From NCBI GenBank assembly GCA_028284625.1, contig JANQRH010000028.1, positions 79,289 through 143,288 of the forward strand: 64,000 bases of DNA, written 5' to 3'. This DNA comes from Afifellaceae bacterium (GTDB lineage: Bacteria > Pseudomonadota > Alphaproteobacteria > Rhizobiales > Afifellaceae). The stretch's first letter is position 1. Each line of letters starts with the position of its first letter. Made by a program: the position numbers and the translations under genes. Positions 14,447-35,393 of the stretch are shown in pieces. Below the pieces are notes generated by a model. It was not told the origin of the DNA. It saw only the letters and a program-made list of their open reading frames with translations, and made no database searches.

Positions 14447-15421
14447 ATGAAGATCCAGCGAGTGGTCGTGCACGCGCAAGGCGGACCGGAAGTCATGGTC
14501 CTTGAAGAGGCGGAACTCGCGCCGCCCGGTCCCGGAGAGGTTCAGCTCCAGCAAACGGCGATCGGCCTCAACTATATGGATGTCTATCAGCGCTCCGGCG
14601 CCTATCCGTTGACGCTGCCGAGTGGGCTCGGGCTGGAAGCCGCCGGTGTCGTCACGGCGGTTGGCGAGGGGGTCGAGGATATCGGTGTTGGCGCTCGCGT
14701 GGCCTACGGCCCGGTCCTCGGGGCTTATGCCAGCCACCGCAATGCTCCTGCGGGACGTGTCGTCAAGATTCCCGATGGCGTTTCCGATGAAACCGCAGCA
14801 GCTGCGCTGATGAAGGGCCTCACGGTGGAGTATCTGCTGACCCGCACGCACAAGGTGTCTGCGGGCGAGGACGTGCTGTTCTACGCCGCCTCGGGGGGCG
14901 TCGGACAGATCGCCGGCCAGTGGGGCAAACATCTCGGCGCGCGCATGATTGGCGTGACCTCCGGCGCGGAGAACTGCAAGAACATCCTTCAAGTGGGTTA
15001 TGCCGAGGCGATCGATCGCAAAGCCGAGGATATCGCCGAACGCGTCCGGGAGCTGACCGGCGGCAAGGGCGTTCCGGTGGTCTACGACAGCATCGGGGCG
15101 GCGACGTTCGATGCTTCCATCAAGAGCCTTGCGACATACGGTCTGTTCGTCTCCTTCGGCGCTACCACAGGAGAAGCCCCTCCGGTCCCACCCAGCCTAT
15201 TGCAGCACAGCGGGTCGCTCTATTTCACCCGGCCAACGCTTGCCGACTACATGAAGGCGCGGGAGGACCTTGAGCGAGCGTCAAGCGAACTCTTCCGGCT
15301 GATCGGCGAGGGCGCCATCGCTATCAACATCGGCCAGCGGTGGCCCCTGTCGGATGTCGCCGAAGCCCACCGAGCACTGGAAGCTGGCGAAACCACCGGC
15401 TCGACAATCTTCACGCCGTAG
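14447..15421 (+). CDS. NADPH:quinone oxidoreductase-like MDR protein (Qor type)
   Basis: A 324-residue zinc-free medium-chain reductase of the quinone oxidoreductase type. The QOR signature is seen in AIGLNYMDVYQRSGAYP near residue 40, LPSGLGLEAAGVV, and the NADPH fold YAASGGVGQIAGQWGKHLGA around residue 150. The zinc-binding cysteines of alcohol dehydrogenases are absent. GGAG precedes the ATG. It is the last gene of the apparent operon that begins with the alcohol dehydrogenase. It may reduce an enone or quinone intermediate of the pathway. Confidence 0.9.
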   Translation: MKIQRVVVHAQGGPEVMVLEEAELAPPGPGEVQLQQTAIGLNYMDVYQRSGAYPLTLPSGLGLEAAGVVTAVGEGVEDIGVGARVAYGPVLGAYASHRNAPAGRVVKIPDGVSDETAAAALMKGLTVEYLLTRTHKVSAGEDVLFYAASGGVGQIAGQWGKHLGARMIGVTSGAENCKNILQVGYAEAIDRKAEDIAERVRELTGGKGVPVVYDSIGAATFDASIKSLATYGLFVSFGATTGEAPPVPPSLLQHSGSLYFTRPTLADYMKAREDLERASSELFRLIGEGAIAINIGQRWPLSDVAEAHRALEAGETTGSTIFTP

Positions 15422-15578
15422 GCGAGGAACCCGCAACACCGCCAGAAGTCACTTCGCTGACGTGATCGGGCTGCACGATCCGGGCAGTTTCGGCCGAGTT
15501 CGAGCTGAGTTGACACCAATCAATTTGCCCTCGGCGCACTCCCGTAAAGTGGCAAAAACGCTGAACAGGAGAGCGGCC

Positions 15579-15995
15579 ATGGCAATGCTGCGGGTCAGTG
15601 ATCTGATGAGCGGTGCGCCGGAGGTGGTGTCGTCGGACACCCCTCTTCATCAGGTCTTGCAGAAGATGAACCGGGCCGGATATCGACATTTGCCGGTCGT
15701 TGACGATGGCCAATTGGTTGGCATTGTCACGGATCGCGACGTCCGTCTGGCGGTCAACTCTCCGGTTCTCGGCGAGGCGGTGGAGACCGCACGCGAAGAC
15801 GTCTTAGATGGAATCCAAGTCATCGACTGCATGACCCCAAATCCGCAATGCGTGACGTCAGACACGCCGCTTCATGAAGCAGCCGACCTTCTCTCTCTCA
15901 ACAAGTTTGGCGCTATGCCGGTCGTAGACGACCAGAAACTCGTTGGCATCATCAGCTATATCGACTTTCTTCGGCACTACGCCGCGCAACGCTGA
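15579..15995 (+). CDS. CBS-domain protein
   Basis: A 138-residue protein made of two CBS motifs, each with the pattern D-T-P-L-H ... V-VDD--LVGI. The first spans about residues 5-60 (VSDLMSGAPEVVSSDTPL) and the second about 75-135 (VIDCMTPNPQCVTSDTPL). Such stand-alone CBS pairs bind adenine nucleotides and sense energy status. ACAGGAGAGCGGCC precedes ATG 15579, 75 codons inside the track ORF. It is 157 bases past the Qor-like gene and probably has its own promoter. Its target cannot be inferred. Confidence 0.9.
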   Translation: MAMLRVSDLMSGAPEVVSSDTPLHQVLQKMNRAGYRHLPVVDDGQLVGIVTDRDVRLAVNSPVLGEAVETAREDVLDGIQVIDCMTPNPQCVTSDTPLHEAADLLSLNKFGAMPVVDDQKLVGIISYIDFLRHYAAQR

Positions 15996-16032
15996 TTGTG
16001 TACGATTTTGCGGCTGTCCTGAGTCCGTCCGA

Positions 16033-17619
16033 TCATGATCGTGCGGCCTGCCAGCCGCCGCCATTCGCCGTCGACACGACAATCTCGTCACCGTGATTAA
16101 CCTCCAAGCCTGAGACGAAGGCGTAGTCTTCACGCGCGCCGGCTCTGCGCACGATGGCGATGCCGTTCGTCCCGCCATCGTCGCCGCCCTTCAGGCCCCA
16201 GACGGGTTGTTTGTAGCGGCTGTAGCCGGCGGAAAGCACGGCGCGTCCGCGCGGCCGGTAGCTGATCTCCAAGCCTTTACCGCCGGAATGCAGGCCGCGG
16301 CCTTCGTCCGTCTCGTTCAGGCGCTTGTAGCCGACATCGATGCCGTAGCGGGCTTCGCAGATCTCCACGGGGCAGTTGAAGGTCTCGCCATGGCTGGCGG
16401 AATACATGGCGTCGAGCCCGTCGCGCTTTGACGTTGCGCCCCAGCCGCCCATCTGCGGCTCCACCATAGTGTAGCGGCGGCCGGTGTCGGGGTGCCGGCC
16501 GGCGATCACCGTGCCGCAGATGGAGGCGAAGTGGCCGGCGGGCAGGCGTTCGGGCATGGCGCGCGCCATACACTGCCACAGCATGTCGTAGAGCCGGATG
16601 CGGGTCTCAAAGTAATAGCCGTGCGGCGCGGTTCCGGTGGCGTGGAAGATCGTGCCGGGTTCGGTGATCACGTGAAGCGGGCGGAACGAGCCGGCATTGG
16701 TGAACAAGGTCGGATCGGTCAGCGCCTTGAAGATCATCTGCGAGGAGATGACGGCGCCGTCGCGGCTGGTGTTATAGGGCGCGTTGCGCTGTGCCGGATT
16801 GTCTCTGAGGTCGACAATGAAGCGGTCGGGCGTCACGCTGATCGTGGCACGCCACAGGGCGCCGTCGTCCTGCTCCTCCTCGATTTCGTAGGTGCCATCC
16901 GGGAGCGAGGAGAGGCCGGCGAGGCCACGCTGCTCGCCTTCCTCAAAGAGCGCCGACAAGGCCGCTCGATATGCCGCCAAACCGTAGGTCTCCACTAGCT
17001 GGCGGATGCGCGCCTCCGCTTTGCGGGAGGCGGCGACTTGCGCCCACAGATCGCCGTTGACGAAATCGGGGAGGCGCGAATTGACCGCGATGATGTCGAA
17101 GACGGAGCGCACCGGTTCGCCGTTTTCAAACAGCTTGATCGCTGGCAGGCGCAGGCCTTCCTGAAAAATCTCGCTGACATCGACCGCCATGGAACCCGGC
17201 GTCTTGCCACCGACATCGTTCCAATGCGCGATAGAGGCGGTCCAGGCGACGAGCGTGTCGCCGGCGAAGACCGGCTGGGCGATCACCACGTCGTTCAGAT
17301 GCGTGACGCCGCCGAAATAGGGGTCGTTGGTGACGAACATGTCGCCCGGCCGGATAGCATCGGCGCCGTTCAGCTCGATGATGCGCTTGACCGCCTTATC
17401 GAGCACACCGACGAAAGTTGGGATGCCGGCGCCGGAGGAGACGAGATTGCCTTCCGCATCCGTGATACCGGTGCCTACGTCGAGCACCTCGTAGATGATC
17501 GGGCTCATCGCGGTCTTCTTCAGAACCGCGAACATCTCGTCGGCGGCGGCGATCAAGCTCGCCTGGATGACGGAGATCGTGAACGTGTCGAATTCGTCTT
17601 GTGGCACGGATGGTCTCAA
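16033..17619 (-). CDS. Hydantoinase B / 5-oxoprolinase beta-subunit family protein (second copy)
   Basis: A 528-residue HyuB-family protein, the catalytic partner of HyuA in ATP-dependent hydrolysis of hydantoins, oxoproline or related cyclic amides. Family motifs: AADEMFAVLKKTAMSPIIYE, GIPTFVGVLDKAV, MFVTNDPYFGGVTHLND, PGSMAVDVSEIFQEGLRLPA and FNCPVEICEARYGID. It closely resembles the HyuB at 20649, so the operon carries two paralogous B subunits for one A subunit. It is the last gene of the minus-strand operon and overlaps the M24 peptidase by four bases. The N-terminus matches its paralogue from QASLIAAADEMF. Confidence 0.93.
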   Translation of the reverse strand: MRPSVPQDEFDTFTISVIQASLIAAADEMFAVLKKTAMSPIIYEVLDVGTGITDAEGNLVSSGAGIPTFVGVLDKAVKRIIELNGADAIRPGDMFVTNDPYFGGVTHLNDVVIAQPVFAGDTLVAWTASIAHWNDVGGKTPGSMAVDVSEIFQEGLRLPAIKLFENGEPVRSVFDIIAVNSRLPDFVNGDLWAQVAASRKAEARIRQLVETYGLAAYRAALSALFEEGEQRGLAGLSSLPDGTYEIEEEQDDGALWRATISVTPDRFIVDLRDNPAQRNAPYNTSRDGAVISSQMIFKALTDPTLFTNAGSFRPLHVITEPGTIFHATGTAPHGYYFETRIRLYDMLWQCMARAMPERLPAGHFASICGTVIAGRHPDTGRRYTMVEPQMGGWGATSKRDGLDAMYSASHGETFNCPVEICEARYGIDVGYKRLNETDEGRGLHSGGKGLEISYRPRGRAVLSAGYSRYKQPVWGLKGGDDGGTNGIAIVRRAGAREDYAFVSGLEVNHGDEIVVSTANGGGWQAARS

Positions 17620-18701
17620 GCATCCGCAACATGAAGCGCGCGCGGCAATTCGGAGAAGATTTCCGGGCCGTCGGAACGCAGGATGACGATCTCCTCCAGC
17701 CTTAGGCCGAAGCGCCCCGGCAGATAGATGCCCGGCTCGATGGAGAACACCATGCCCTCGTCGAGCACGGTCTCAGACGTTGCGGTGATGTAAGGCGGTT
17801 CATGCACCTCAATGCCGAGACCGTGGCCGGTGCGGTGCACGAAATATTCGCCGTAGCCGGCCTCTGTGATGAGGTCGCGGGCGGCGGCGTCGACTGACTT
17901 TGCCTCGACCCCGGGCTTCGCGGCCGCGAGCCCCGCTTGGACGGCGGCCTCCACGATGGCGTGGATTTCGGCGTAGCCTTCCGGCGCGTGGCCGAGCGCT
18001 GCCATCCTCGTCATGTCGGAGGGAAAGCCATCCTTGCGGCCGCCGATGTCGATGACGATGGCGTCGCCGGCTTCAAGTTTGCGCTCGCCGGTGGCGTGGT
18101 GGGGAAACGCGCCGTTGGGCCCGGAGCCGACGATGGAGAATTGCGGCTGGGCGCCTTCGCTTGCGAAATGCGCGCGAATGGCCGCCGCGACCTCAAGCTC
18201 CGTAACGCCTGGCTTCAAAGCGGCAAAGCCGGCTTGCATGGCGCGGTCGTTGATGAGGGCGTTCTCCTTCAGGAGCCGGTATTCGGTGTCGTCCTTCCGC
18301 ATGCGGAGCGCGCCCACGGTATCCTCCGTGAAGCTCCGCCGAGCGTTGGGCAGGTTATCGAGCAGGAGCAGGGCGAAATCGGCGCGCATTGTCTCGTCGA
18401 CCGCAACGGCGCGCGCACGATCTGCACTCGTGGCGGCAAGGGCTGCGTTCAGCGCATCCACCGGTCCGTCCGCGTCGGCCCATTCGTGAAAGGCGATGTC
18501 GGTTCGCTCGCGCGATCCTTCGGCGTTGAGCGCCGGCATGAGGAACGCTTCTTTCTCCACGCCGACAAGCAAGAGGCAGGGGCGCTCGTCGGGATGTGGA
18601 TGGAAGCCGAGCAGCCAGTCGACATGCGGGCCGGGGCCGAGCGCGACGAGGTCGGTGCCGGTTTCACGCATCTTCGCGCGGAGTTTCTCCAGACGATCCA
18701 T
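17616..18701 (-). CDS. M24-family metallopeptidase (Xaa-Pro aminopeptidase-like)
   Basis: A 361-residue M24 'pita-bread' metallopeptidase with a creatinase-like N-terminal domain (residues 1-~125). The five expected metal ligands are visible: the two Asp in DIGGRKDGFPSDMTR, His in HRTGHGLGIEVHE, Glu in SIEPGIYLPG and Glu in RLEEIVIL; FPHHATG carries the substrate-side His. Family members cleave Xaa-Pro bonds or related amides such as creatine. In this operon it may hydrolyse the linear product released by HyuAB ring opening. It is 12 bases after the MDR gene stop and overlaps the second HyuB. Confidence 0.92.
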   Translation of the reverse strand: MDRLEKLRAKMRETGTDLVALGPGPHVDWLLGFHPHPDERPCLLLVGVEKEAFLMPALNAEGSRERTDIAFHEWADADGPVDALNAALAATSADRARAVAVDETMRADFALLLLDNLPNARRSFTEDTVGALRMRKDDTEYRLLKENALINDRAMQAGFAALKPGVTELEVAAAIRAHFASEGAQPQFSIVGSGPNGAFPHHATGERKLEAGDAIVIDIGGRKDGFPSDMTRMAALGHAPEGYAEIHAIVEAAVQAGLAAAKPGVEAKSVDAAARDLITEAGYGEYFVHRTGHGLGIEVHEPPYITATSETVLDEGMVFSIEPGIYLPGRFGLRLEEIVILRSDGPEIFSELPRALHVADA

Positions 18702-18713
18702 GAACCTCTCCCG

Positions 18714-19712
18714 CTAGAGCCCGGTTTCCACGACCACTTTGCCGTGGCTGGTCCTGGTGCCCCTCAAGTAGCGCCATGCGTCTTTGTAACCTTCCATCGG
18801 ATACACGCGGTCGACGTTCGGCTTGAGCGAGCCATCGGCGATCGTCTTGTAGACATAGGCCTTGCCCCGCGCGTTCGCCGCATCGTCCTCGACGTAATTG
18901 AAGATCGAATAGGTGTGGAACCAGAGGCTTCGCTGGATCATGGGCAGGAAGGGGGGAACCGCATATTGCCCCGTCAAGCCGCCATAGAGGAACAGGATGC
19001 CCCCTTTGGCCATGGCATTGGCGTAGCGGTCCATAAAGTCGGAGCCGACGGGGTCGAACGAGGCGTGCACGCCGACGCCATCGGTCACGTCGCGCAGGAA
19101 GCCCTCGATGTCTCCGCCGTCGTCGACAAAGACATGATGGGCGCCGCTGTCGAGGAGGTATTGCCTGTTCGCCTCCGACCGTGTGGTAGCGATCATGGTC
19201 GCGCCGCAGAGCCGCCCGATATGCAACGCCGCGTTCCCGGAGGTGCTGGTGCCGGCGGGAATGAGAATGTTCTTGCCGGGCGCCGCCTTTGCCAGCTCCA
19301 CAATCGGGAAGTAGGCGGTCATGAACTGTATCCAGATGGACGCAGCCTCGGTCTTCGTCAGACCATCCGGCGCCTTGGTGATGTAGGCCTGGTCGATGAG
19401 CATCGTGTCAGCGCTGGTGCCACGCCGATCGTAGAAATAGGGCAAGGTGCAATAGCGCTCGCCGACCTCGATCCCCTCGACCTTTTCGCCGACGGCTTCC
19501 ACGATGCCGGCTGCCTCACAGCCGATGCGCGCGGGGAAGGCGGAGAAGCTGAAGGAATAGCGATCGTTCATCAGGTCCTCGTCGCCCCAGTTGAGCGCAA
19601 AGGCCTCCACCCGAAGGCGCACGTCGGTCGGGCCGGGCTCCTCCATCGTGCACTCGACCAGCTCGAGCCCCTCATACCCGCCATAAGCGTTAATCACCCA
19701 TTCCCTCGGCAT
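18714..19712 (-). CDS. Zinc-free MDR oxidoreductase (quinone-oxidoreductase-like)
   Basis: A 332-residue medium-chain dehydrogenase/reductase. The N-terminal GroES-like fold contains RVEAFALNWGDEDLMNDRY and IGCEAAGIVEAVG, and the nucleotide-binding region is ILIPAGTSTSGNAALHIGRLCGATMIAT. No structural zinc cysteine cluster is seen. It sits between the racemase-like gene and the M24 peptidase in the hydantoinase operon, 69 bases after the racemase gene. Its redox role is unclear; reduction of an unsaturated side chain or carbonyl on the imported compound would fit. Confidence 0.85.
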   Translation of the reverse strand: MPREWVINAYGGYEGLELVECTMEEPGPTDVRLRVEAFALNWGDEDLMNDRYSFSFSAFPARIGCEAAGIVEAVGEKVEGIEVGERYCTLPYFYDRRGTSADTMLIDQAYITKAPDGLTKTEAASIWIQFMTAYFPIVELAKAAPGKNILIPAGTSTSGNAALHIGRLCGATMIATTRSEANRQYLLDSGAHHVFVDDGGDIEGFLRDVTDGVGVHASFDPVGSDFMDRYANAMAKGGILFLYGGLTGQYAVPPFLPMIQRSLWFHTYSIFNYVEDDAANARGKAYVYKTIADGSLKPNVDRVYPMEGYKDAWRYLRGTRTSHGKVVVETGL

Positions 19713-19781
19713 GGCTTCCTGTCCTTTCTTCTCGTCCTTGGCGTTGTTGACGGCTTTGAACTGCGTCAGTGCGGTGCAGCG

Positions 19782-20612
19782 TCAGGCCGCCAATGATGTT
19801 GCGCCGGGTTCGGCCTCAACGATGACGCGGTTGCCGAACGCCTCGCCGTCGTCGAAGCCGCCGAAGCGAGCGATTTCCTCTTCCGAGGGCGCTTCACACG
19901 ACCATTTGCGGCTCGGCACCCAGCCGCATTGGCGCTTGAGGATGGCGGCGTATTCGGCGCGTTTCAGCGCGGCGATCGAGGGGTCGATCACCGGCACGCC
20001 GAGCGTCTGTGACAATTCGCGATAGAAGCCGACCTCCAGCGTGCAGCCGAGGATGAGCGCCTCGGCGTAATCCTCTTCCACGGCCTTGCGGCCGGCTTCA
20101 GTGAGCCGCCGATTGGTCTCGGCGTGATCGCGCTGAAAATCGTTCACGCCGAGCTCGACATGGTAGAAGCCGGCCAGCCGGTCGCGATGGCCATGCTCGT
20201 GAACGGTCGCCTGCATCTGGTTCACCCATTTGCGCCGGCCGACGATCACGCCGAAACGGTTGGCGAGGCTGGCGGCGATCTCGCAGGACGCCGCGCAGGG
20301 CGCGGTGACGATCATGTCGCCGGAGATCTCGCGCGCGTCGTGTAGCGCGGTGTCATAGAAGCAGCCGATCGCAAAGCCGTCGAAGCCCTCGCGCGCGGCC
20401 GCCCTGACGGCGCGGATGATGCCGCGGGTAACGATCGCCTCATAGGAACGGAACTCGATGTGTGTGAATGCGCCGTCGTGATCGGGCAGGGAGGTGACGT
20501 GCACTTCCGTGCCGGGCAGCTTGTGGTCGGCGGCCATCTTGGCGAAGATGCCGTCATCCGCGCCGCGGTTGCCCACCGGGCTCAAATACATGATCTTTAG
20601 CGGTGCGTTCAT
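19782..20612 (-). CDS. Asp/Glu/hydantoin racemase-family protein
   Basis: A 276-residue protein of the aspartate/glutamate/hydantoin racemase superfamily. The two catalytic cysteines of this two-base racemase fold are visible in FAIGCFYDTAL and LILGCTLEVG. AAGGAGGATGAC directly before ATG 20612 fixes the start, six codons inside the track ORF. In hydantoin-utilising operons this gene (hyuE) interconverts D- and L-5-substituted hydantoins so that a stereospecific hydrolase can use both. It lies just after the first HyuB gene. Related family members also include maleate isomerases, so racemase activity is probable but not certain. Confidence 0.85.
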   Translation of the reverse strand: MNAPLKIMYLSPVGNRGADDGIFAKMAADHKLPGTEVHVTSLPDHDGAFTHIEFRSYEAIVTRGIIRAVRAAAREGFDGFAIGCFYDTALHDAREISGDMIVTAPCAASCEIAASLANRFGVIVGRRKWVNQMQATVHEHGHRDRLAGFYHVELGVNDFQRDHAETNRRLTEAGRKAVEEDYAEALILGCTLEVGFYRELSQTLGVPVIDPSIAALKRAEYAAILKRQCGWVPSRKWSCEAPSEEEIARFGGFDDGEAFGNRVIVEAEPGATSLAA

Positions 20613-20648
20613 GTCATCCTCCTTGTGCATGAGCCGGTATGTCGTCGG

Positions 20649-22310
20649 TCACACCGGGCCGTAAATCTCCTCGGCGCGTGCTTTCGTGATCAATCCATTC
20701 TTGATGTCGTCGCGGACGGCGTCGCGGTCGCGCTCCTTGGGGTCGCCCTGGCCACCGCCATTGCCGGTGACGACACGGATGACGTCGTCGACATGCGTGA
20801 CCTTTCCGGAGATGAAGGCGAACGTCTCCGGATCGCCATCCTTGGGGCGGAACTCGACGTAATTGGGCGAGCCATCCGCGCCGCCATCCACGCCCCAGGC
20901 CGGAAACTTCGACCGCGTGTAGCCGACGGTAAGGAAGCCGTTGTCGGTGCGGATGCGGTAATCCATGACGATGCCGCGCCCGCCGGTATGCTTGCCTTCG
21001 CCGCCGGGCTCCATGTTGAGTTCCATGCGGTCGACATAAAGGCCGTTACGGGCCTCGTTGATCTCGGCGGGACAGTTGAAGGTCTCGCCGTGGAAGCCGC
21101 AGAACATGGCGGAATTGCCGTCGCGAACGCGGCTCGCGCCCCAGCCGCCAAGCTGCGGCTCGATGATGGTGTATTGCCGACCCGTGTCGGGGTGGATGCC
21201 GCCGATAAACGTGCCGCACACGGATGCGAAATGGCCGGCAGCGAGGCGGTCGGGCATATGCGGCGCGAGGCAGCGCCACATGATGTCATAGACGCGCAAT
21301 TCGATCTCGTAATAGAAGCCGATCGGGGCCGGCTCCTTGGCGTGAAAGACGGAGCCCTCGCGGGTCAAGAGATTGATGGGGCGGAACGAGCCGCCATTGG
21401 CCGGCGAATAGGGATCGGTCAGCGACTTGAAGATCATCTGTGCCGCGACCATCACGCCGTCGCGGCTGGTGTTGACGGGATTGTCCGCCTGGTCGGGATT
21501 GTCGCGCAGGTCGACCGTGAACTGATCGTCGGCGATGGTGATCTTGACGTTGAAGATGCGTCCGTCGTCCTGCTCCTCCGATAGATCGAACGTGCCCTTG
21601 GGCAAGCCGGAGAGCGCCTTCAGCGACGCCTCTTCGCCATAGTCCATGAACGCGACCATGGCGTTATCAAAGGTGGCGACGCCGTATTTCTCCGCCAGCT
21701 CGCGCAGACGCCGATCGCCGACACGCACCGAAGCGATTGCTGCCCAGACGTCGCCTTCAAGCACGTCGGGCATGCGAGAATTGACCTTGATGATCTCCAT
21801 CACCGGCTTGATCGGCTCGCCCTTGGAGATGATTTTGATAGCCGGCAGGCGCAGGCCTTCTTGGAAGATCTCCGTGGCCTCGCCGGTCAGCGAGCCGGGG
21901 GCCATGCCGCCGACATCCGAATTGTGGGCGATGTTGGCGGTCCAGGCGATGATACGGCCGCCGGCAAAGACCGGCATGGCGACGACGATGTCGTTGAGAT
22001 GCGTGACGCCGCCATAATAGGGATCGTTGGTGGCGAACACATCGCCGGGCTCGATGCCGCCCGGCTTGTCGAACTTGGCGATGATCACCTTCACCGCCTT
22101 GTCGAGCACGCCGATGAAGGCGGGGATGCCGGCGCCGGAGGAGGCGAGTTCGCCCTTGGCGTCCATGATGCCGGTGCCCATGTCGAGTACCTCATAGATG
22201 ATGGAGCTCATCGCGGTCTTCTTCATCGCCGCGAACATCTCGTCGGCGGCCGCCTGCAGTGAGTTCTGGATGATTTCCAGCGTGATCGGGTCGTTGGAGA
22301 TTGCGCTCAT
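20649..22310 (-). CDS. hyuB: Hydantoinase B / 5-oxoprolinase beta-subunit
   Basis: A 553-residue HyuB protein that would form a complex with the HyuA encoded immediately upstream to open a cyclic amide at the cost of ATP. Motifs: QAAADEMFAAMKKTAMSSIIYE, GVFATNDPYYGGVTHLND-like segment, PGSLTGEATEIFQEGLRLPA and FNCPAEINEARNGLY. GAGGAT eight bases before ATG 22310 sets the start, 11 bases beyond the HyuA stop. The C-terminal tail (KNGLITKARAEEIYGPV) is typical of hydantoinase B proteins and is missing from the shorter paralogue at 16033. Substrate may be hydantoin, oxoproline or another lactam. Confidence 0.93.
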   Translation of the reverse strand: MSAISNDPITLEIIQNSLQAAADEMFAAMKKTAMSSIIYEVLDMGTGIMDAKGELASSGAGIPAFIGVLDKAVKVIIAKFDKPGGIEPGDVFATNDPYYGGVTHLNDIVVAMPVFAGGRIIAWTANIAHNSDVGGMAPGSLTGEATEIFQEGLRLPAIKIISKGEPIKPVMEIIKVNSRMPDVLEGDVWAAIASVRVGDRRLRELAEKYGVATFDNAMVAFMDYGEEASLKALSGLPKGTFDLSEEQDDGRIFNVKITIADDQFTVDLRDNPDQADNPVNTSRDGVMVAAQMIFKSLTDPYSPANGGSFRPINLLTREGSVFHAKEPAPIGFYYEIELRVYDIMWRCLAPHMPDRLAAGHFASVCGTFIGGIHPDTGRQYTIIEPQLGGWGASRVRDGNSAMFCGFHGETFNCPAEINEARNGLYVDRMELNMEPGGEGKHTGGRGIVMDYRIRTDNGFLTVGYTRSKFPAWGVDGGADGSPNYVEFRPKDGDPETFAFISGKVTHVDDVIRVVTGNGGGQGDPKERDRDAVRDDIKNGLITKARAEEIYGPV

Positions 22311-22321
22311 GGGTCCGATCC

Positions 22322-24394
22322 TCAATTCGCCATGTCGATATGGATGTTGCCGTAGCCGTCGACCTCGGCGCGGTTGCCGGGATGCAGCACGACGGTCATG
22401 CCGGGGTCCTCAACGATCGCCGGGCCGCTCAGCACCATGCCCGGCGTCAGCTTCGTACCATCGTAGATGTCGGCTTCGTGAATGCCTTCAAGCGCGTAAT
22501 CGACCGCGCGTTTGCCCTTCAGCGCCGGCGCGGGATCGGCATCGCCGCGCGGCGCTTCCGTCATGGTGAGCTTGCCGACCTCCGCTGACGCGATGAGGTG
22601 TATGCCCACCATCTCAACGGGCGCGTCGAGCCGGTATGTGTATTCGCGCTCGTAGGTCTCGTGGAAATCGGCCTCGATCTTAGCGAGGTTCTCCGCGGTG
22701 ACGGCGCCGTCGAGCAGCACTTCGGTGGTGTGCTCCTGGTTCTGATAGCGGAACTTGCCGAAGCGCACGAATTTTATCCGCTCCGGCTCGACGCCCTCAT
22801 CGCCGAATTGCTGTCTGGCGACGGCTTCGGTGTCGGCGAAGGTCTGCTCGATCGTCGCCTCTGAGCCCTTCTGCAGATCGACCAGCCTGGTGACGAAATA
22901 GTCGCGCCTGAGGTCCGACATCATCATGCCCCAGGCGGAGAAGACCGGCGCGCCTGCAGGCACGACCACCTTCTTCACGCCAAGCTCCGCGGCAAGCGCC
23001 ATCGCGTGCATCGCGCCGCCGCCGCCAAAGGCGACGAGCACGAAGTCGCGCGGATCGAAGCCGCGATTGAGCGACACAAGCTTCAGCGCGTTGACCATGT
23101 TGTTGTTGGCAATGCGGATGATGCCACGCGCCGCCTCGTCGGCGTCGACGCCGAGCTTCTGGCCGACATTATTGATCGCGGTCTCGGCGGCCGCCATGTC
23201 GGCGTCGATCTCGCCGCCGCAGAAATAGTCGCGGTTGATGCGACCGAGCCAGAGATTGGCGTCGGTGGTGGTGGCTTCGGTGCCGCCTTTGCCGTAGGCG
23301 GCGGGGCCGGGCAGCGCGCCGGCCGATTGCGGTCCGACATGCAGCTTGCCGAAATCGTCGACCCAGGCGATGGAGCCGCCACCATTGCCGATCTCCACAA
23401 GATCGACCACCGGAACCATGATCGGATAGCCGGCGGAGGTGCGGTCGCGCTCGATCCAGTAATCCGTCATGATGCGGACTTGGCCGTTCTCAATCAGCGA
23501 GCACTTTGCCGTGGTGCCGCCGATGTCGAGGGCGAGCACATTCGGCTCGCCTATCAGCCGACCAAGTTCCGCTGCACCCCAGAAGCCTGACGCGGGTCCG
23601 GACTCCACCATGGTGATCGGGATGCGCGCCACGGACTCAAGTGAATCCACGCCGCAATTGGACTGCATGATGTAAGGGCTGCCCGTGAAACCCTTGGCCT
23701 TTAGGCCATCGTTGAGGCGGCGCAGATAGCGCTCCGCAGTGGGCTGCACATAGGCGGAGAGCACCGCCGTGTTGGTGCGCTCATATTCGCGCCATTCGCG
23801 GGTGATCTGGTGCGAGGACACCACCGAAGCCTCCGGCCACAGCTCGTGCACTTTCGCCAGCGTTGCCTGCTCGTGCGACGGGTTGGCGTAGGAATGCAGG
23901 AAGCAGACGGCGATCGCCTCCACGCCTTCGGAACGAAAGTCCTCCAAAATGCCCGGCAATGGTGAAAGATCGAGCGGCGCCATCTCCTCGCCGCGATAGC
24001 TCATCCGCCCCGGCAGCTCGCGGCGGAGATAGCGCGGCACAAATGGCTTCGGCTTCTCATAGTGCAGATTGAAGAAGTCGGGCCGGTTGCCGCGTGCGAT
24101 CTCCAGCGTGTCGCGAAAGCCTTCGGTCGTGATCAGGCCGACGGTGCCGCCCTTGCGTTCCGTCAGCGCGTTAATGACGACGGTGGTGCCGTGCGCCAGA
24201 AAATCGACGGTCGCCGGGTCGACGCCGCCTTTCTCAAGGACGTTCAGCACGCCGCGTTCGAAATCGGGCGGTGTGGTGTCGGATTTCGCCGTGACGACGG
24301 TCGAGCGACCGTTATCGGGATCGGTTTCAAAGCAGACCAGATCGGTGAACGTGCCGCCGACATCGGTTGCCACACGTATTGTCTTGCCAGCCAC
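22322..24394 (-). CDS. hyuA: Hydantoinase A / 5-oxoprolinase alpha-subunit (ATP-dependent)
   Basis: A 690-residue HyuA protein of the acetone carboxylase/hydantoinase/oxoprolinase ATPase group. Residues 1-~180 form the hydantoinase/oxoprolinase N-terminal domain with the phosphate loop ATDVGGTFTDLVCFE; the central hydantoinase A domain has ALDIGGTTAKCSLI and VAFGGGGAMHAMALAAELGV. It starts with GTG within a TAGTG overlap with the GAF gene stop. It pairs with HyuB (20649) and possibly with the second HyuB (16033). The ATPase subunit activates the cyclic amide by phosphorylation before hydrolysis. Confidence 0.95.
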   Translation of the reverse strand: MAGKTIRVATDVGGTFTDLVCFETDPDNGRSTVVTAKSDTTPPDFERGVLNVLEKGGVDPATVDFLAHGTTVVINALTERKGGTVGLITTEGFRDTLEIARGNRPDFFNLHYEKPKPFVPRYLRRELPGRMSYRGEEMAPLDLSPLPGILEDFRSEGVEAIAVCFLHSYANPSHEQATLAKVHELWPEASVVSSHQITREWREYERTNTAVLSAYVQPTAERYLRRLNDGLKAKGFTGSPYIMQSNCGVDSLESVARIPITMVESGPASGFWGAAELGRLIGEPNVLALDIGGTTAKCSLIENGQVRIMTDYWIERDRTSAGYPIMVPVVDLVEIGNGGGSIAWVDDFGKLHVGPQSAGALPGPAAYGKGGTEATTTDANLWLGRINRDYFCGGEIDADMAAAETAINNVGQKLGVDADEAARGIIRIANNNMVNALKLVSLNRGFDPRDFVLVAFGGGGAMHAMALAAELGVKKVVVPAGAPVFSAWGMMMSDLRRDYFVTRLVDLQKGSEATIEQTFADTEAVARQQFGDEGVEPERIKFVRFGKFRYQNQEHTTEVLLDGAVTAENLAKIEADFHETYEREYTYRLDAPVEMVGIHLIASAEVGKLTMTEAPRGDADPAPALKGKRAVDYALEGIHEADIYDGTKLTPGMVLSGPAIVEDPGMTVVLHPGNRAEVDGYGNIHIDMAN

Positions 24395-30933: not shown

Positions 30934-31713
30934 TCAGCGCTCCGTTGCGGTGGGCATGTTGCCGAAGCCCAGGAGTCGTTGGCCGGAATCGATGACCAGG
31001 GTGTGGCCCGTGACGTGCCGCGCGCCGATCAGATAAAGCACGCCGGCTGCGATATCGTCCGTGCCGAGACCCTCGCCGAGCGGTGTCAGTTTCTGGCGGC
31101 TTCGGAACGTCGTCTCGCTCTGCCCGCTCGGCAGGACAAGCCCGGGCGCGATCGCATTGACGGTGATCCCCTTGGGCGCAAGCGATGTGGCGGCGAGCCT
31201 TGTGGCGCCTTCCAGCCCGAACTTGCCGCAGAAGTAACTAAAACGCTCCGGCGATGCAGAGGTCATCTGAGTGTCGAGCAGATTGATAATGGCGGCGGGT
31301 GCGGGGAGGGGATCTTGGCGCGCGAAGACCTGCATCAGGAAGACGGGTGCTGCAAGGTTCACGTTGATCAGTCGTGACCAGCTTTCAGCGTCGAGGTCGT
31401 GGAGATTGTCCTTGTCGAACAAGGACGCGGAGTTGACGAGAACGTTGACCGGCCCAAGCGCGTCGCGCGTGCGCTCAATCAGGTTGCCGCTCGTTTCCGC
31501 CGTCGTGAGATCAAAGCGCAGGGTCGCCGCACGCCGACCCAGATCGGCGATCTTTTGGGCGGTTTCGTCGGCGCCCTTTGCCGAACTGTTGTAATGCACG
31601 GCCACGTCGTAGCCCTGCTCGGCGAGCCCGATTGCAATGGCGCGCCCGATGCGTTGCCCCGCGCCGGTCACCAGCGCCACGCCCGCGCCGTTAGTGCTTG
31701 GCGGGTTCGTCAT
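30934..31713 (-). CDS. SDR-family reductase of the pteridine reductase (FolM/PTR1) type
   Basis: A short-chain dehydrogenase of about 259 residues. The nucleotide motif is TGAGQRIG, the TGxxxRxG form that marks pteridine reductases (PTR1) and FolM, rather than the usual TGxxxGxG. NVLVNSASLF and the catalytic Y-x3-K in FSYFCGKFGL are present. ATG 31713 overlaps the upstream DHPS-like stop by one base (TGATG); a GTG six bases earlier is an alternative. As last gene of the FolB-FolK-DHPS-like operon it very plausibly reduces a dihydropterin or dihydrofolate-like product with NADPH. General SDR function would be the fallback. Confidence 0.87.
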   Translation of the reverse strand: MTNPPSTNGAGVALVTGAGQRIGRAIAIGLAEQGYDVAVHYNSSAKGADETAQKIADLGRRAATLRFDLTTAETSGNLIERTRDALGPVNVLVNSASLFDKDNLHDLDAESWSRLINVNLAAPVFLMQVFARQDPLPAPAAIINLLDTQMTSASPERFSYFCGKFGLEGATRLAATSLAPKGITVNAIAPGLVLPSGQSETTFRSRQKLTPLGEGLGTDDIAAGVLYLIGARHVTGHTLVIDSGQRLLGFGNMPTATER

Positions 31714-32597
31714 CAGCACATCTCAAGCAGGTTGAGTACGGGTTGGACGCGCGCGGCCTCATGGCTGCGCAAGAGGTTCGCCTTGGCAAGCAAAGCAAGC
31801 GTTGCCATCGCGGTTTCCGCGCAGCGCACCTCGTCCTGGAACAGATAGACCGACGAGGGCATCGTGACACAGACCGGCCAGCCGAGCACACGGAACCGGA
31901 AGGATTGCAGCAGGCTTTCGGTCTGATAGCGCACGCGCTCCGGCCCGTCGGGGAGATTGAGCGCAAAGCCGAAACCGGGATCGACCCAGATGCGCTCAAT
32001 CCCGGCTTCGGTCGCAATGGCCAGCCGCTCGCGGAAAAATGCCATCTGCTGGTCGATGATCGCGTCCGCGCCGGGGAGCCTGTCGATGGAACGCGCCGTC
32101 TCGCCGGGCGTATAGCAGAGGATCAGGCCGGCCTCATGCCGCGCGATCGCTTCGTAGAACGCCGGGTCGTCGATGCGTCCCGTGAGGTTGATGATACCGG
32201 CCCCGGCTTCAAGCGCGGCAGCGGCGACGGGCGCGTGATAGGTCTCGGCGGAGACCAGAATCCCGTCATCGGCCAACGCCTTCACGACCGGGACAAGCGT
32301 TGCGATCTGATGGTCAATGTCGACCCGGTCCGCCGCCTCGCCGGTCGATTCCGCGCCGACATCGATGATCGCGGCACCCTCGATCGTCATGCGTCGGCCG
32401 CGATAGAGCGCGGACTCGACATTGTGGCAGATGCTCTCGCGATAGGAGGAATCGCGCGAGAGGTTGATGACGCCGAGCTGGTAGGGCTTGTCGTCAAAGC
32501 GCCGGCCGAAGTTCGGAAAGGCGAAGCTCTTCACGGGATGGCGAAGAGCGTTCTGATGCGCCGTCCACAGCGGCAGCAATCGGTCCGGCGTGATCAT
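31713..32597 (-). CDS. Degenerate dihydropteroate synthase homologue (pterin-binding family)
   Basis: A 294-residue TIM-barrel protein of the pterin-binding family, clearly related to dihydropteroate synthase (FolP) but altered at key sites. Conserved: IIDVGAEST (residues 77-85), the Asn of the second pterin-side motif (IIN, 135-137), VDPGFGF (205-211) and the Arg and His in RSHE (277-280). Changed: loop 1 reads GVINLSRDSSYRES instead of GxxNxTPDSFSDGG; the Arg after EST is Gly; SVDT is SAET; the GxSRKS lysine region is TMPSSVY. FolP joins p-aminobenzoate to the pterin, and the lost positions serve pABA and pyrophosphate binding. It overlaps FolK by ATGA. It may use another acceptor or only bind pterin. 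Confidence 0.85.
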   Translation of the reverse strand: MITPDRLLPLWTAHQNALRHPVKSFAFPNFGRRFDDKPYQLGVINLSRDSSYRESICHNVESALYRGRRMTIEGAAIIDVGAESTGEAADRVDIDHQIATLVPVVKALADDGILVSAETYHAPVAAAALEAGAGIINLTGRIDDPAFYEAIARHEAGLILCYTPGETARSIDRLPGADAIIDQQMAFFRERLAIATEAGIERIWVDPGFGFALNLPDGPERVRYQTESLLQSFRFRVLGWPVCVTMPSSVYLFQDEVRCAETAMATLALLAKANLLRSHEAARVQPVLNLLEMC

Positions 32598-33118
32598 GCG
32601 CGCTCCTCTCGCGGCTCGGTCCAGTCTGAGGCGACCCGACTCAGCTCGCCGGCTTCTTCGGGCAGCATGTCGAGATGCTGCTTCATCGTATAGCCCGTCC
32701 GAGGATGTTTGAGGTCGACGGCGAGATCACAGAGCGGCGCCATCACGAACCGGCGCTGATGCATCCGCGGATGCGGCAGCGTCAACTCGGCTTCATCGCT
32801 CACGATGTCGCCATATAGCAGGAGATCGAGGTCCATTGTTCGCGGCCCCCAAGGGATCACGCGCTCCCGGCCGTGTTCGGCCTCGATGCGATGCAATGTG
32901 CGGAGCAGTTCTCCGGGCTTGAGCGTCGTTTCAATCTCCATTGCGGCATTGAGAAACGGGCCTTGATCCTCTGGGCCGCCGACGGGTGCTGTTTCGTAGA
33001 GTGCTGATACGGCGCTCACCGCGCAGCTCGGTTCTTTGCCGATCGCCGTCACCGCGTCCTTCATGTGCTGAAGCCGGTCGCCGAGATTCGATCCAAGGGC
33101 AACGAAGCATCTAACCAT
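32594..33118 (-). CDS. folK: 2-amino-4-hydroxy-6-hydroxymethyldihydropteridine pyrophosphokinase
   Basis: A 174-residue HPPK that pyrophosphorylates 6-hydroxymethyl-dihydropterin with ATP. All family motifs look intact: FVALGSNLGD, LYETAPVGGPEDQGPFLNA, the ATP loop RVIPWGPRTMDLDLLLYGD with its two metal-binding Asp, and LPHPRMHQRRFVMAPL. It overlaps FolB (eight bases) and the DHPS-like gene (ATGA), so the three are translationally coupled. Its sequence is ordinary, in contrast to the neighbouring DHPS homologue. Confidence 0.96.
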   Translation of the reverse strand: MVRCFVALGSNLGDRLQHMKDAVTAIGKEPSCAVSAVSALYETAPVGGPEDQGPFLNAAMEIETTLKPGELLRTLHRIEAEHGRERVIPWGPRTMDLDLLLYGDIVSDEAELTLPHPRMHQRRFVMAPLCDLAVDLKHPRTGYTMKQHLDMLPEEAGELSRVASDWTEPREERA

Positions 33119-33536
33119 GGTCGCGGCGGCGATGGATCACGACGCCGACGCCATCGGCATTGTCGAAGATGTCGGGTTTTTGAACGGTCACTTTGACGGC
33201 TGCGACCAAAGTGTTGGAGAGCACGAACGCAGCAACGGATTCCGCCAGGGTTTCGAGGAGCTCGACGTGCTCGTCCGATGCGGCGAGCGCCTCAATGTGC
33301 TGAACGATATCGGCGTAGGACACATAGGTTCCGGTCGAGCGGACGATCTCCGCATATCCGGAAACGGTCTCCGCTTCGACATCGAAGACGACGGTCTGTC
33401 GCGCCGATCGTTCAAATTCGTGCACACCCACAAAGGCCTGCACACGAAGCCCGCGGATGATGATGCGGTCGGGTTCGCCTTCAATGAGCTCCGGCGAGAC
33501 GATTGCCGGCTGAGCGGCGTCGGGATCATTTTTCAC
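33111..33536 (-). CDS. folB: Dihydroneopterin aldolase
   Basis: A 141-residue FolB that converts dihydroneopterin to hydroxymethyl-dihydropterin and glycolaldehyde. The core opens DRIIIRGLRVQAFVGVHEFERSARQTVVFDVEAE; the pterin-anchoring Glu lies in LLETLAESVA; the catalytic Lys is in VKVTVQKPDIF. About 20 extra residues precede the domain, so a slightly later start is possible. It lies 36 bases after the DUF393 gene and overlaps FolK. Confidence 0.93.
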   Translation of the reverse strand: MKNDPDAAQPAIVSPELIEGEPDRIIIRGLRVQAFVGVHEFERSARQTVVFDVEAETVSGYAEIVRSTGTYVSYADIVQHIEALAASDEHVELLETLAESVAAFVLSNTLVAAVKVTVQKPDIFDNADGVGVVIHRRRDHG

Positions 33537-33572: not shown

Positions 33573-33980
33573 TTATCGTTCGGCCGATAGCTCCTTACCG
33601 CGCTTTTGGCTACGGCCAACAAGGCCGGCCAACATCGGACGCGCGGGCAGGAAGAGCCGGTAGCCGAACTCAAGAAGAGCCATCATACCCGGAAATGCCG
33701 CAATCCGTGCAGCCCAGCGCCATTTCGGCAGCACGTCCCAGATGCTGACGAAAGCGGCGGCGCCCGAAACGAGTGCGCCGTTGGCGCGCCGGACGTGGAA
33801 GCGCGCCATCGCCGCTTCAACTGAAAGGCCACTTTCGAGCGCCTGGCCCGGCCGCGAGACGTCCTTGAAATCGAGCCGGTCGGCTCCTGTCTGCCTGCGA
33901 TAGTGATCGATCTCGGCGCGGCACAGGGGGCAGGATCCGTCGAAATAGACGACGAGGCTTGGGCCTTTAGGCGACGCCAT
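33573..33980 (-). CDS. DUF393 (DCC) thioredoxin-like protein
   Basis: A 135-residue protein of the DUF393 family, putative thiol-disulfide oxidoreductases. The naming motif DxxCPxC is seen in YFDGSCPLCRAEIDHYRR, near the N-terminus. The ORF track begins inside the DUF3095 gene; I use ATG 33980, 13 bases after that gene's stop. It is followed by folB after 36 bases, so it appears to belong to the pterin operon. Whether it has a redox role in pterin metabolism or is a passenger cannot be told. Confidence 0.85.
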   Translation of the reverse strand: MASPKGPSLVVYFDGSCPLCRAEIDHYRRQTGADRLDFKDVSRPGQALESGLSVEAAMARFHVRRANGALVSGAAAFVSIWDVLPKWRWAARIAAFPGMMALLEFGYRLFLPARPMLAGLVGRSQKRGKELSAER

Positions 33981-33993
33981 CGCGGTCGGGGCC

Positions 33994-35139
33994 TCAGGTG
34001 TGTAGGGCTTTTGCCGCGCTTGCATATCCGCCGTCTGCGCCGTCGACGAAGTGCATGTGCTTGGAGCTTGTCACGACCGGCGCGACGCAGGTCACCAAGG
34101 CCTCGTCCTGAACGTGAAGACCGTAGCGCAAGACGCCGGCATCGACCGCCTGGCCCAATACCGATTGAAGATGAGCGATCGTTGCATCGGAACAGTCGAT
34201 GGTCATCAAGAGGCCATCGTCGTATTTCCGGAAGTCGGTGTTTCCGGCCATTTCGCGCTTATACCTGACCGGATCAAATCCGCCGATGCGCACGCGCGTC
34301 TTGAAAAGGAGCCATGCAATGGCCGTGTTGGCGATGAGCTGCAGGCGGCGCCGCGTCGCGCCGCCGCGCAGAGCGCGCGACTGCAGAGACAGGGATTGCC
34401 GCGGCCAGCGCAGGTCCGGCCCCTCCACCGGCACTGGGTTCAGGCCGTCGGCGCCCTCAAGATACGCCATTATCCGTGCCGCAACCTCGGTGAACTCCGC
34501 CTCCGACGCGTTCGGCGCTCGCTTCACGATCAGCGACACGATCTTGCCGTTCTTTGGCTGCACCGGACCCCACTGGCATGAGAGGCCGGTCAGATCGGGC
34601 ATCTCATCGGGGGCGGCGTGGGGAAGCGCGAACAGCCCGCGTCTGAGGCGTTCGTCGATCCAATCGAGTCCGCCGCCGGTGAACATCGCATAGCGAACGT
34701 GATCCGACGCGCGCCAAAAGGCGACTTTCACATCGACACCGGCGTCGCGCACGTCTTTGACACGCGCAATGCCGACGCGCAGTTCAAGACCCAGGTCCTT
34801 CTTGGCCCATATGCCGACGCGCGAAAGGGCATTTGCAGCTCTCTCGGCTTGGGCAGGCGGAACGGCAAATCGCGCGCCGTCGCCGGCGAATGCGAAGAGC
34901 GGAAGATCGCCGCCGAGCGCGTTGGCAACGCCACAGATCGTTGCGGCGCCGGCGAAGTTGACGGCTTTATAGTGACCGGCTGCGATCTTGCTTTTCGAAT
35001 CGACGATGTCGGAGACGCCGACAAACCAATTGTCCGGTAAAGGCCTGTAGAGGGCCGCGTCAGCGACTTTCTCGAATTGGTCGAGCTCCGGGATCGAGTC
35101 TTCGAACGGAACGTTGTTCCTTGCTTGCTTGGCGACCAT
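33994..35139 (-). CDS. DUF3095 family protein
   Basis: A protein of about 381 residues matching DUF3095, a family whose N-terminal half resembles nucleotide-cyclase folds. Characteristic pieces are YRPLPDNWFVGVSDIVDSKSKIAAGHYKAVNFAGA near the start (an Asp-containing metal-site-like strand), LPLFAFAGDGARFAVP, and the C-terminal SKHMHFVDGADGGYASAAK. ATG 35139 is my preferred start; the track start 30 codons earlier is possible. It heads the apparent DUF3095-DUF393-folB-folK-DHPS-like-SDR operon. Enzymatic activity has not, to my knowledge, been established. Confidence 0.82.
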   Translation of the reverse strand: MVAKQARNNVPFEDSIPELDQFEKVADAALYRPLPDNWFVGVSDIVDSKSKIAAGHYKAVNFAGAATICGVANALGGDLPLFAFAGDGARFAVPPAQAERAANALSRVGIWAKKDLGLELRVGIARVKDVRDAGVDVKVAFWRASDHVRYAMFTGGGLDWIDERLRRGLFALPHAAPDEMPDLTGLSCQWGPVQPKNGKIVSLIVKRAPNASEAEFTEVAARIMAYLEGADGLNPVPVEGPDLRWPRQSLSLQSRALRGGATRRRLQLIANTAIAWLLFKTRVRIGGFDPVRYKREMAGNTDFRKYDDGLLMTIDCSDATIAHLQSVLGQAVDAGVLRYGLHVQDEALVTCVAPVVTSSKHMHFVDGADGGYASAAKALHT

Positions 35140-35393
35140 GACAATTGTGTTTCGGCGGGCCTCGTTTTGGCGGGTATGCGCACCCGGCGAGGCGACTGAA
35201 CTTTTGCCAGATTGAGTGGGCGCATACATTTTTCGCCGTCAGCTCCGTTTTCGTGCTTCGATCAGGCACCGGAAGTGCCCGGTGTCTCTACGCTTACATA
35301 CGCAGCCGAGGCCCCGGCGGATCACCGGCGGCAGGCGCGTCTGACGCATTGGCCGATATGGTTCCGGAGCGGTTGATCGACCTCTGAGCGGCC

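Follow-up and report, generated by a model that had tools for sequence, protein, structure and literature searches.

A dihydropteroate synthase-fold paralogue with an altered active site in a folB-folK gene cluster of Alphaproteobacteria

An Afifellaceae bacterium carries, in a compact operon with folB, folK and a pteridine reductase-type SDR gene, a protein of the dihydropteroate synthase (DHPS) fold, here called DHPSp, in which residues conserved throughout FolP have been replaced. Because an ordinary folP lies elsewhere in the genome, DHPSp is a paralogue, and from its sequence we see about an even chance that it is a neofunctionalised one, a pterin enzyme with an acceptor other than pABA. 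It probably has a different pterin job, with folate left to the cell's ordinary enzyme. The features described below (Table 1) lie in the window, a stretch of 64,000 nucleotides from contig JANQRH010000028.1. Literature searches found no paper joining Roseibium, a genus in which the gene also occurs, with dihydropteroate synthase and pterin, and no description of a folB-folK-DHPSp-SDR cluster. A second, non-DHPS FolP (FolP2) has been described in actinobacteria, and folM-like genes have been seen next to pterin genes before; what appears new is the combination, together with this clade.

Table 1. Positions in the window of the cluster genes, the altered segments of DHPSp and the neighbouring genes
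Feature	Position	Strand	Basis
DCC1-like and DUF3095 genes, mutually overlapping, just upstream of folB	33573-35229	-	profile search
folB, dihydroneopterin aldolase; catalytic Glu/Tyr/Glu/Lys kept; sole genome copy	33111..33536	-	profile search, alignment
folK (HPPK); stop overlaps DHPSp start (ATGA); sole genome copy	32594..33118	-	profile search
DHPSp, DHPS-fold paralogue (PF00809) with altered active site	31713..32597	-	ORF, profile search, predicted structure, alignment
Remodelled loop 1, INLSRDSSYR (DHPSp codons 44-53)	32439..32468	-	alignment
Loop 2, ESTGEA replacing ESTRPG (DHPSp codons 83-88)	32334..32351	-	alignment
Clade-specific insert after DPGFGFAL, NLPDGPERVRYQ, with invariant R221/R223 (DHPSp codons 214-225)	31923..31958	-	alignment
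MPSSVY replacing xSRKSx, active-site Lys lost (DHPSp codons 246-251)	31845..31862	-	alignment
SDR of FolM/PTR1 (pteridine reductase) type; TGX3RXG and D...YxxxK	30934..31719	-	profile search, alignment

A DHPS barrel with a changed active site

The DHPSp reading frame begins with ATG and encodes a full-length protein of 294 residues, with the translation quoted in the initial annotation of this DNA. In profile searches it scores 117.7 bits against PF00809 (Pterin_bind) and 124.7 bits against TIGR01496, the latter below the equivalog cut-off of 162.6. Structure prediction, which the initial annotation had proposed as a check, gave a confident, full-length DHPS barrel (AlphaFold, mean pLDDT 85.6, pTM 0.89), and a Foldseek search with this model returned Sul2 as the top solved match (E 4e-19) and E. 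coli DHPS as the next (1.7e-18). By its PF00809 score and the Foldseek matches, DHPSp has the TIM-barrel fold of FolP.

Residues are numbered here as in E. coli K-12 FolP, by alignment, and conservation was compared between 62 FolPs and 13 sampled members of the DHPSp clade. DHPSp shares with FolP N22 (its own N45), D26, S27, E60-S61-T62, N115 (N137), D185-P-G-F-G-F (D185 being D206), R255 and H257. In loop 1, T24 is replaced by S, P25 by R, F28 by S and SDGG by YRES. The N, D and S of this loop are invariant in the clade and its proline is present in 8 of the 13 members, so that the loop, described initially as lost, has a changed consensus and is better called remodelled. Further along the protein R63 becomes G86, D96 becomes E118, D116 is absent or L, M139-H140 become C161-Y162, and S219-R220-K221-S222 reads P-S-S-V. 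R63, D96, H140 and S-R-K are 100% conserved in the 62 FolPs; R63 and H140 differ in every sampled clade member, Ser219 differs in 12, and D96 is retained by a single member (from genome G191) and replaced by E in the other 12. The active-site Arg and Lys of S-R-K-S, present in 62/62 FolPs, are missing from 13/13 members, which upholds the loss of the lysine noticed at the outset. The segment that replaces SRKS varies inside the clade (PSS, TGA or ASP), and where the window protein has SAET, Roseibium proteins have SVET and the G191 protein SVDT. All of the motif replacements first reported are present in the translation.

DHPSp also gains features relative to FolP: an N-terminal extension, the insert after DPGFGF, and a set of residues that are newly invariant in the clade (among them Y52-R53-E54, T139-G140-R141, R169, R221, R223, R234, R236 and W240), the polar ones lying in the barrel-loop segments that hold the DHPS active site. 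The insert falls in the beta6-alpha6 region, as would suit an acceptor site of altered shape. The new invariant residues from Y52 to R236 weakly suggest that the acceptor is anionic.

The sulfonamide-resistance enzymes Sul1, Sul2 and Sul3 are informative as to which changes matter. R63 is replaced in them as well (H in Sul1, N in Sul2), loop 1 of Sul1 is remodelled (TEDSFFDES), and an insertion lies in the same beta6-alpha6 region, yet pABA use is retained (PMC10328974). The losses at R63 and loop 1 alone are therefore no argument for a lost pABA site, and the loss of the EST-Arg emphasised in the initial annotation is real without being diagnostic. However, the Sul enzymes make dihydropteroate and keep F28, D96, D116, M139-H140 and S-R-K-S, whereas DHPSp loses nearly all of these; it is the joint change of F28, D96 to E, D116, M139-H140 to CY and S219-R220-K221-S222, each kept by the three Sul sequences, that argues for a new role. 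A simple Sul-type enzyme was considered for DHPSp and rejected: S-R-K-S is lost, the insert is different from and longer than the two-residue Phe-Gly alpha6 insertion, and in the tree Sul1-3 group with one another in a clade distant from DHPSp.

The kept residues N22, S27, N115, D185, R255 and H257 belong to the floor of the pterin pocket and to the Mg/pyrophosphate end of the site. The initial view that the pterin-pocket half is kept is not supported, because K221 is changed and so is D96, which we take to be a pterin-pocket position in DHPS. The equivalent of K221 in Sul1, Lys212, hydrogen-bonds the pterin together with Asn101 and Asp173 (PMC10328974); since the lost Lys contacts pterin too, this half of the site is not wholly kept. 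The pABA-contacting residues are gone, DHPSp belongs to a clade of its own and a normal folP coexists with it, so that the most likely interpretation is an altered acceptor or a role other than that of DHPS.

A second FolP that reportedly does not act as a DHPS has a precedent in FolP2, which DHPSp may resemble in this respect: folP2 of M. leprae fails to complement E. coli folP (PMC1971073) and M. tuberculosis FolP2 (Rv1207) is predicted to be defective (PMC7809127). FolP2 clusters with actinobacterial cell-wall genes, whereas DHPSp clusters with folB and the SDR gene in alphaproteobacteria. Compared by PDB score, FolP2 (2vp8) reached 81.5 bits against up to 114.5, below most FolPs; it was left out of the tree described below.

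Phylogeny, selection and spread

The DHPSp clade is monophyletic with 100/100 support and separate from FolP on a long branch, a point that the initial annotation had proposed to check, with a stem of ~2.4 substitutions per site and short internal branches, in a tree of uncertain root that gives no support for a sister group. The clade spans Afifellaceae, Roseibium/Labrenzia and two further alphaproteobacterial lineages. Within it dN/dS is 0.03-0.09, a sign of strong purifying selection, and none of 20 aligned homologues has a frameshift. A functionless, decaying duplicate of folP would account for the loss of universally conserved residues, but it is very improbable given this dN/dS and the lack of frameshifts; insertions have also become fixed, other residues have become invariant, and the gene has stayed with its operon through horizontal transfer. 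We rejected both a relic and a sequencing artefact on dN/dS and clade-wide conservation, which also exclude chance as the source of the motif replacements.

Close DHPSp loci (L004-L025, 63-94% identity) occur in public genomes of Afifellaceae, Roseibium, Labrenzia and Stappia, and in MAGs labelled Rhodospirillaceae and Alphaproteobacteria. The gene is present in only 8 of 398 sampled genomes of the order, separated by a wide score gap (at least 350 bits versus at most 114). Two loci, L023 and L014, have a Roseibium-like DHPSp, yet the ordinary FolPs of their genomes are distant in the tree, which points to movement of the cluster between lineages by horizontal transfer.

Two other groups of homologues were observed. 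DHPS homologues of Chloroflexota (L036 and L058) have an odd loop 1 (NVSVDSPVTHS and NVSPDSPVERS) with SRK kept, and constitute another variant group. Ordinary FolPs of one genus (L199-L204; family f18, genus g64) sit on a long branch, which a single quick tree grouped with the Sul clade at 99% SH-aLRT; this placement may reflect long-branch attraction.

The folB-folK-DHPSp-SDR cluster

The four genes overlap in the window, folB and folK by 8 bp, folK and DHPSp by 4 bp, and DHPSp and the SDR gene by 7 bp. The catalytic Lys, Tyr and Glu of FolB are kept in alignment with E. coli FolB and FolX, and FolB and FolK both retain their signature residues. Like FolP, DHPSp neighbours folB and folK. The TGX3RXG motif, aligned to E. 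coli FolM, occurs in all 11 operon SDRs, and the SDR also has the Asp-Tyr-Lys catalytic set, which together with this motif is the FolM/PTR1 signature (PMC1971073). It shares both, as well as the folB neighbour, with FolM/PruA/PTR1, but differs in having an adjacent DHPS-fold paralogue and a PRK09134 score (260) under the curated cut-off (281).

The same gene order is found at L004, L023 and L024 and in G191. The cluster includes folK in four lineages, in two of which it overlaps DHPSp, and most Roseibium clusters are without it (folB-DHPSp-SDR); there, where looked at, folK adjoins the ordinary folP. In Roseibium genomes with the cluster, the cluster FolB is the only FolB, whereas G262 and G279, of the same genus group and without the cluster, have a different, high-scoring FolB. 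From this comparison native folB (and folK) appears to have been displaced by the cluster. The DCC1-like and DUF3095 genes were considered as part of the module and rejected, since they are not beside the cluster in relatives, including the 94% identical L004.

In Roseibium porphyridii (L205, NZ_CP120864.1, positions 14507-22940) a 49-kb circular record designated a plasmid carries folB-DHPSp-SDR and, ~0.5 kb downstream of it, a complete rRNA operon (16S, tRNA-Ile, tRNA-Ala, 23S, 5S, tRNA-Met). With an rRNA repeat in this position, the fact that many Roseibium contigs stop right after the SDR gene would be accounted for.

Possible roles of DHPSp and their meaning

The operon order matches the order of a series of steps that can be proposed for it. 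The cluster FolB and the adjacent FolK would make an activated pterin; DHPSp would bind a ligand of the 6-(hydroxymethyl)dihydropterin type, probably the FolK-made pyrophosphate, through N22, S27, N115, D185, R255 and H257, and act on it with a partner other than pABA; and the SDR would reduce the dihydropterin product to a non-folate tetrahydropterin. The cluster might then be, quite tentatively, a dedicated path to an undescribed reduced pterin conjugate, which would give these alphaproteobacteria a further conjugated tetrahydropterin besides folate. The pyrophosphate substrate is not assured because most Roseibium clusters are without folK. Supply of cofactor to phenylalanine hydroxylase was rejected as a purpose, since a search of 15 genomes gave no PhhA; a tetrahydropterin made by the cluster would thus not serve that enzyme.

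DHPSp could instead carry out no transferase chemistry and serve as a pterin-binding accessory. Such a pseudo-enzyme would bind dihydro- or tetrahydromonapterin-type pterins and either pass them between FolB (aldolase/epimerase) and the FolM-like reductase or regulate them. This is somewhat unlikely, although several observations favour it: DHPSp has lost Lys221 together with its neighbouring Ser and Arg63, and the segment replacing SRKS has no conserved substitute, a pattern expected if this edge of the site had become functionless as much as if it had gained a new specificity; most Roseibium clusters have folB-DHPSp-SDR, without folK, as their constant part; and folM-like genes cluster with pterin-branch genes (PMC1971073), with PruA producing tetrahydromonapterin in Agrobacterium (PMC13259868). 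Standing against it are the Mg/pyrophosphate residues (the clade shows no variation at N22, S27, R255 or H257, and D185 is retained), the inclusion and overlap of folK in some lineages, and the position of the new invariant polar residues in segments of the DHPS active site.

The remaining alternative is a divergent working DHPS, perhaps a sulfa-insensitive second FolP, in which shifted residues replace K221, R63 and H140. Ordinary folP is present in every tested DHPSp carrier except G191. In the window genome (100% complete) it lies on a different contig, scores 254.9 bits and has all motifs; a third PF00809 protein there (L003), beside a methylenetetrahydrofolate-reductase-like ORF, looks from its sequence and this neighbour like a methyltransferase. 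G191, a 91% complete MAG of the same order and another family, has the cluster FolB and FolK, and its only PF00809 proteins are MetH and DHPSp; no canonical folP was detected in it, which also weighs against the neofunctionalised reading. Canonical FolP is found in 8 of the 10 genomes of its family, that is, in 8 of its 9 family mates. The G191 assembly may simply lack folP, the lineage may depend on folate from outside, or DHPSp may take over the DHPS function there. Retention of D96 in G191, the inserted R221 and R223, which could reach the site, and the function of Sul enzymes without R63 are also in keeping with a working DHPS. We nevertheless regard it as rather improbable: folate auxotrophy is an alternative for G191, whose 98% complete genus mate G108 (f18, g64) has neither folP nor folB detected, all other carriers keep canonical FolP, and the dihydropteroate-making Sul1-3 keep the residues that DHPSp has jointly lost.

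The SDR was likewise considered as sole dihydrofolate reductase and rejected, FolA being present in 13 of 14 genomes. The exception is G006, the DHPSp carrier that holds L023 and whose completeness is not given, in which no FolA-type DHFR (PF00186) was found; there the SDR could matter for folate reduction.

In a public Roseibium record (WP_152499760.1) DHPSp is annotated as 'dihydropteroate synthase', so that folate reconstructions of these genomes count a second DHPS where there probably is not one. The sulfonamide insensitivity raised in the initial annotation, if real, would be of little consequence to a cell with an ordinary folP. DHPSp offers a natural test of the residues that govern acceptor choice, with the pyrophosphate end of the site kept and the pABA end lost, and in this it complements the Sul enzymes, which lose R63 yet retain pABA use. 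If DHPSp does use another acceptor, the cluster would be a pointer to a new pterin metabolite.
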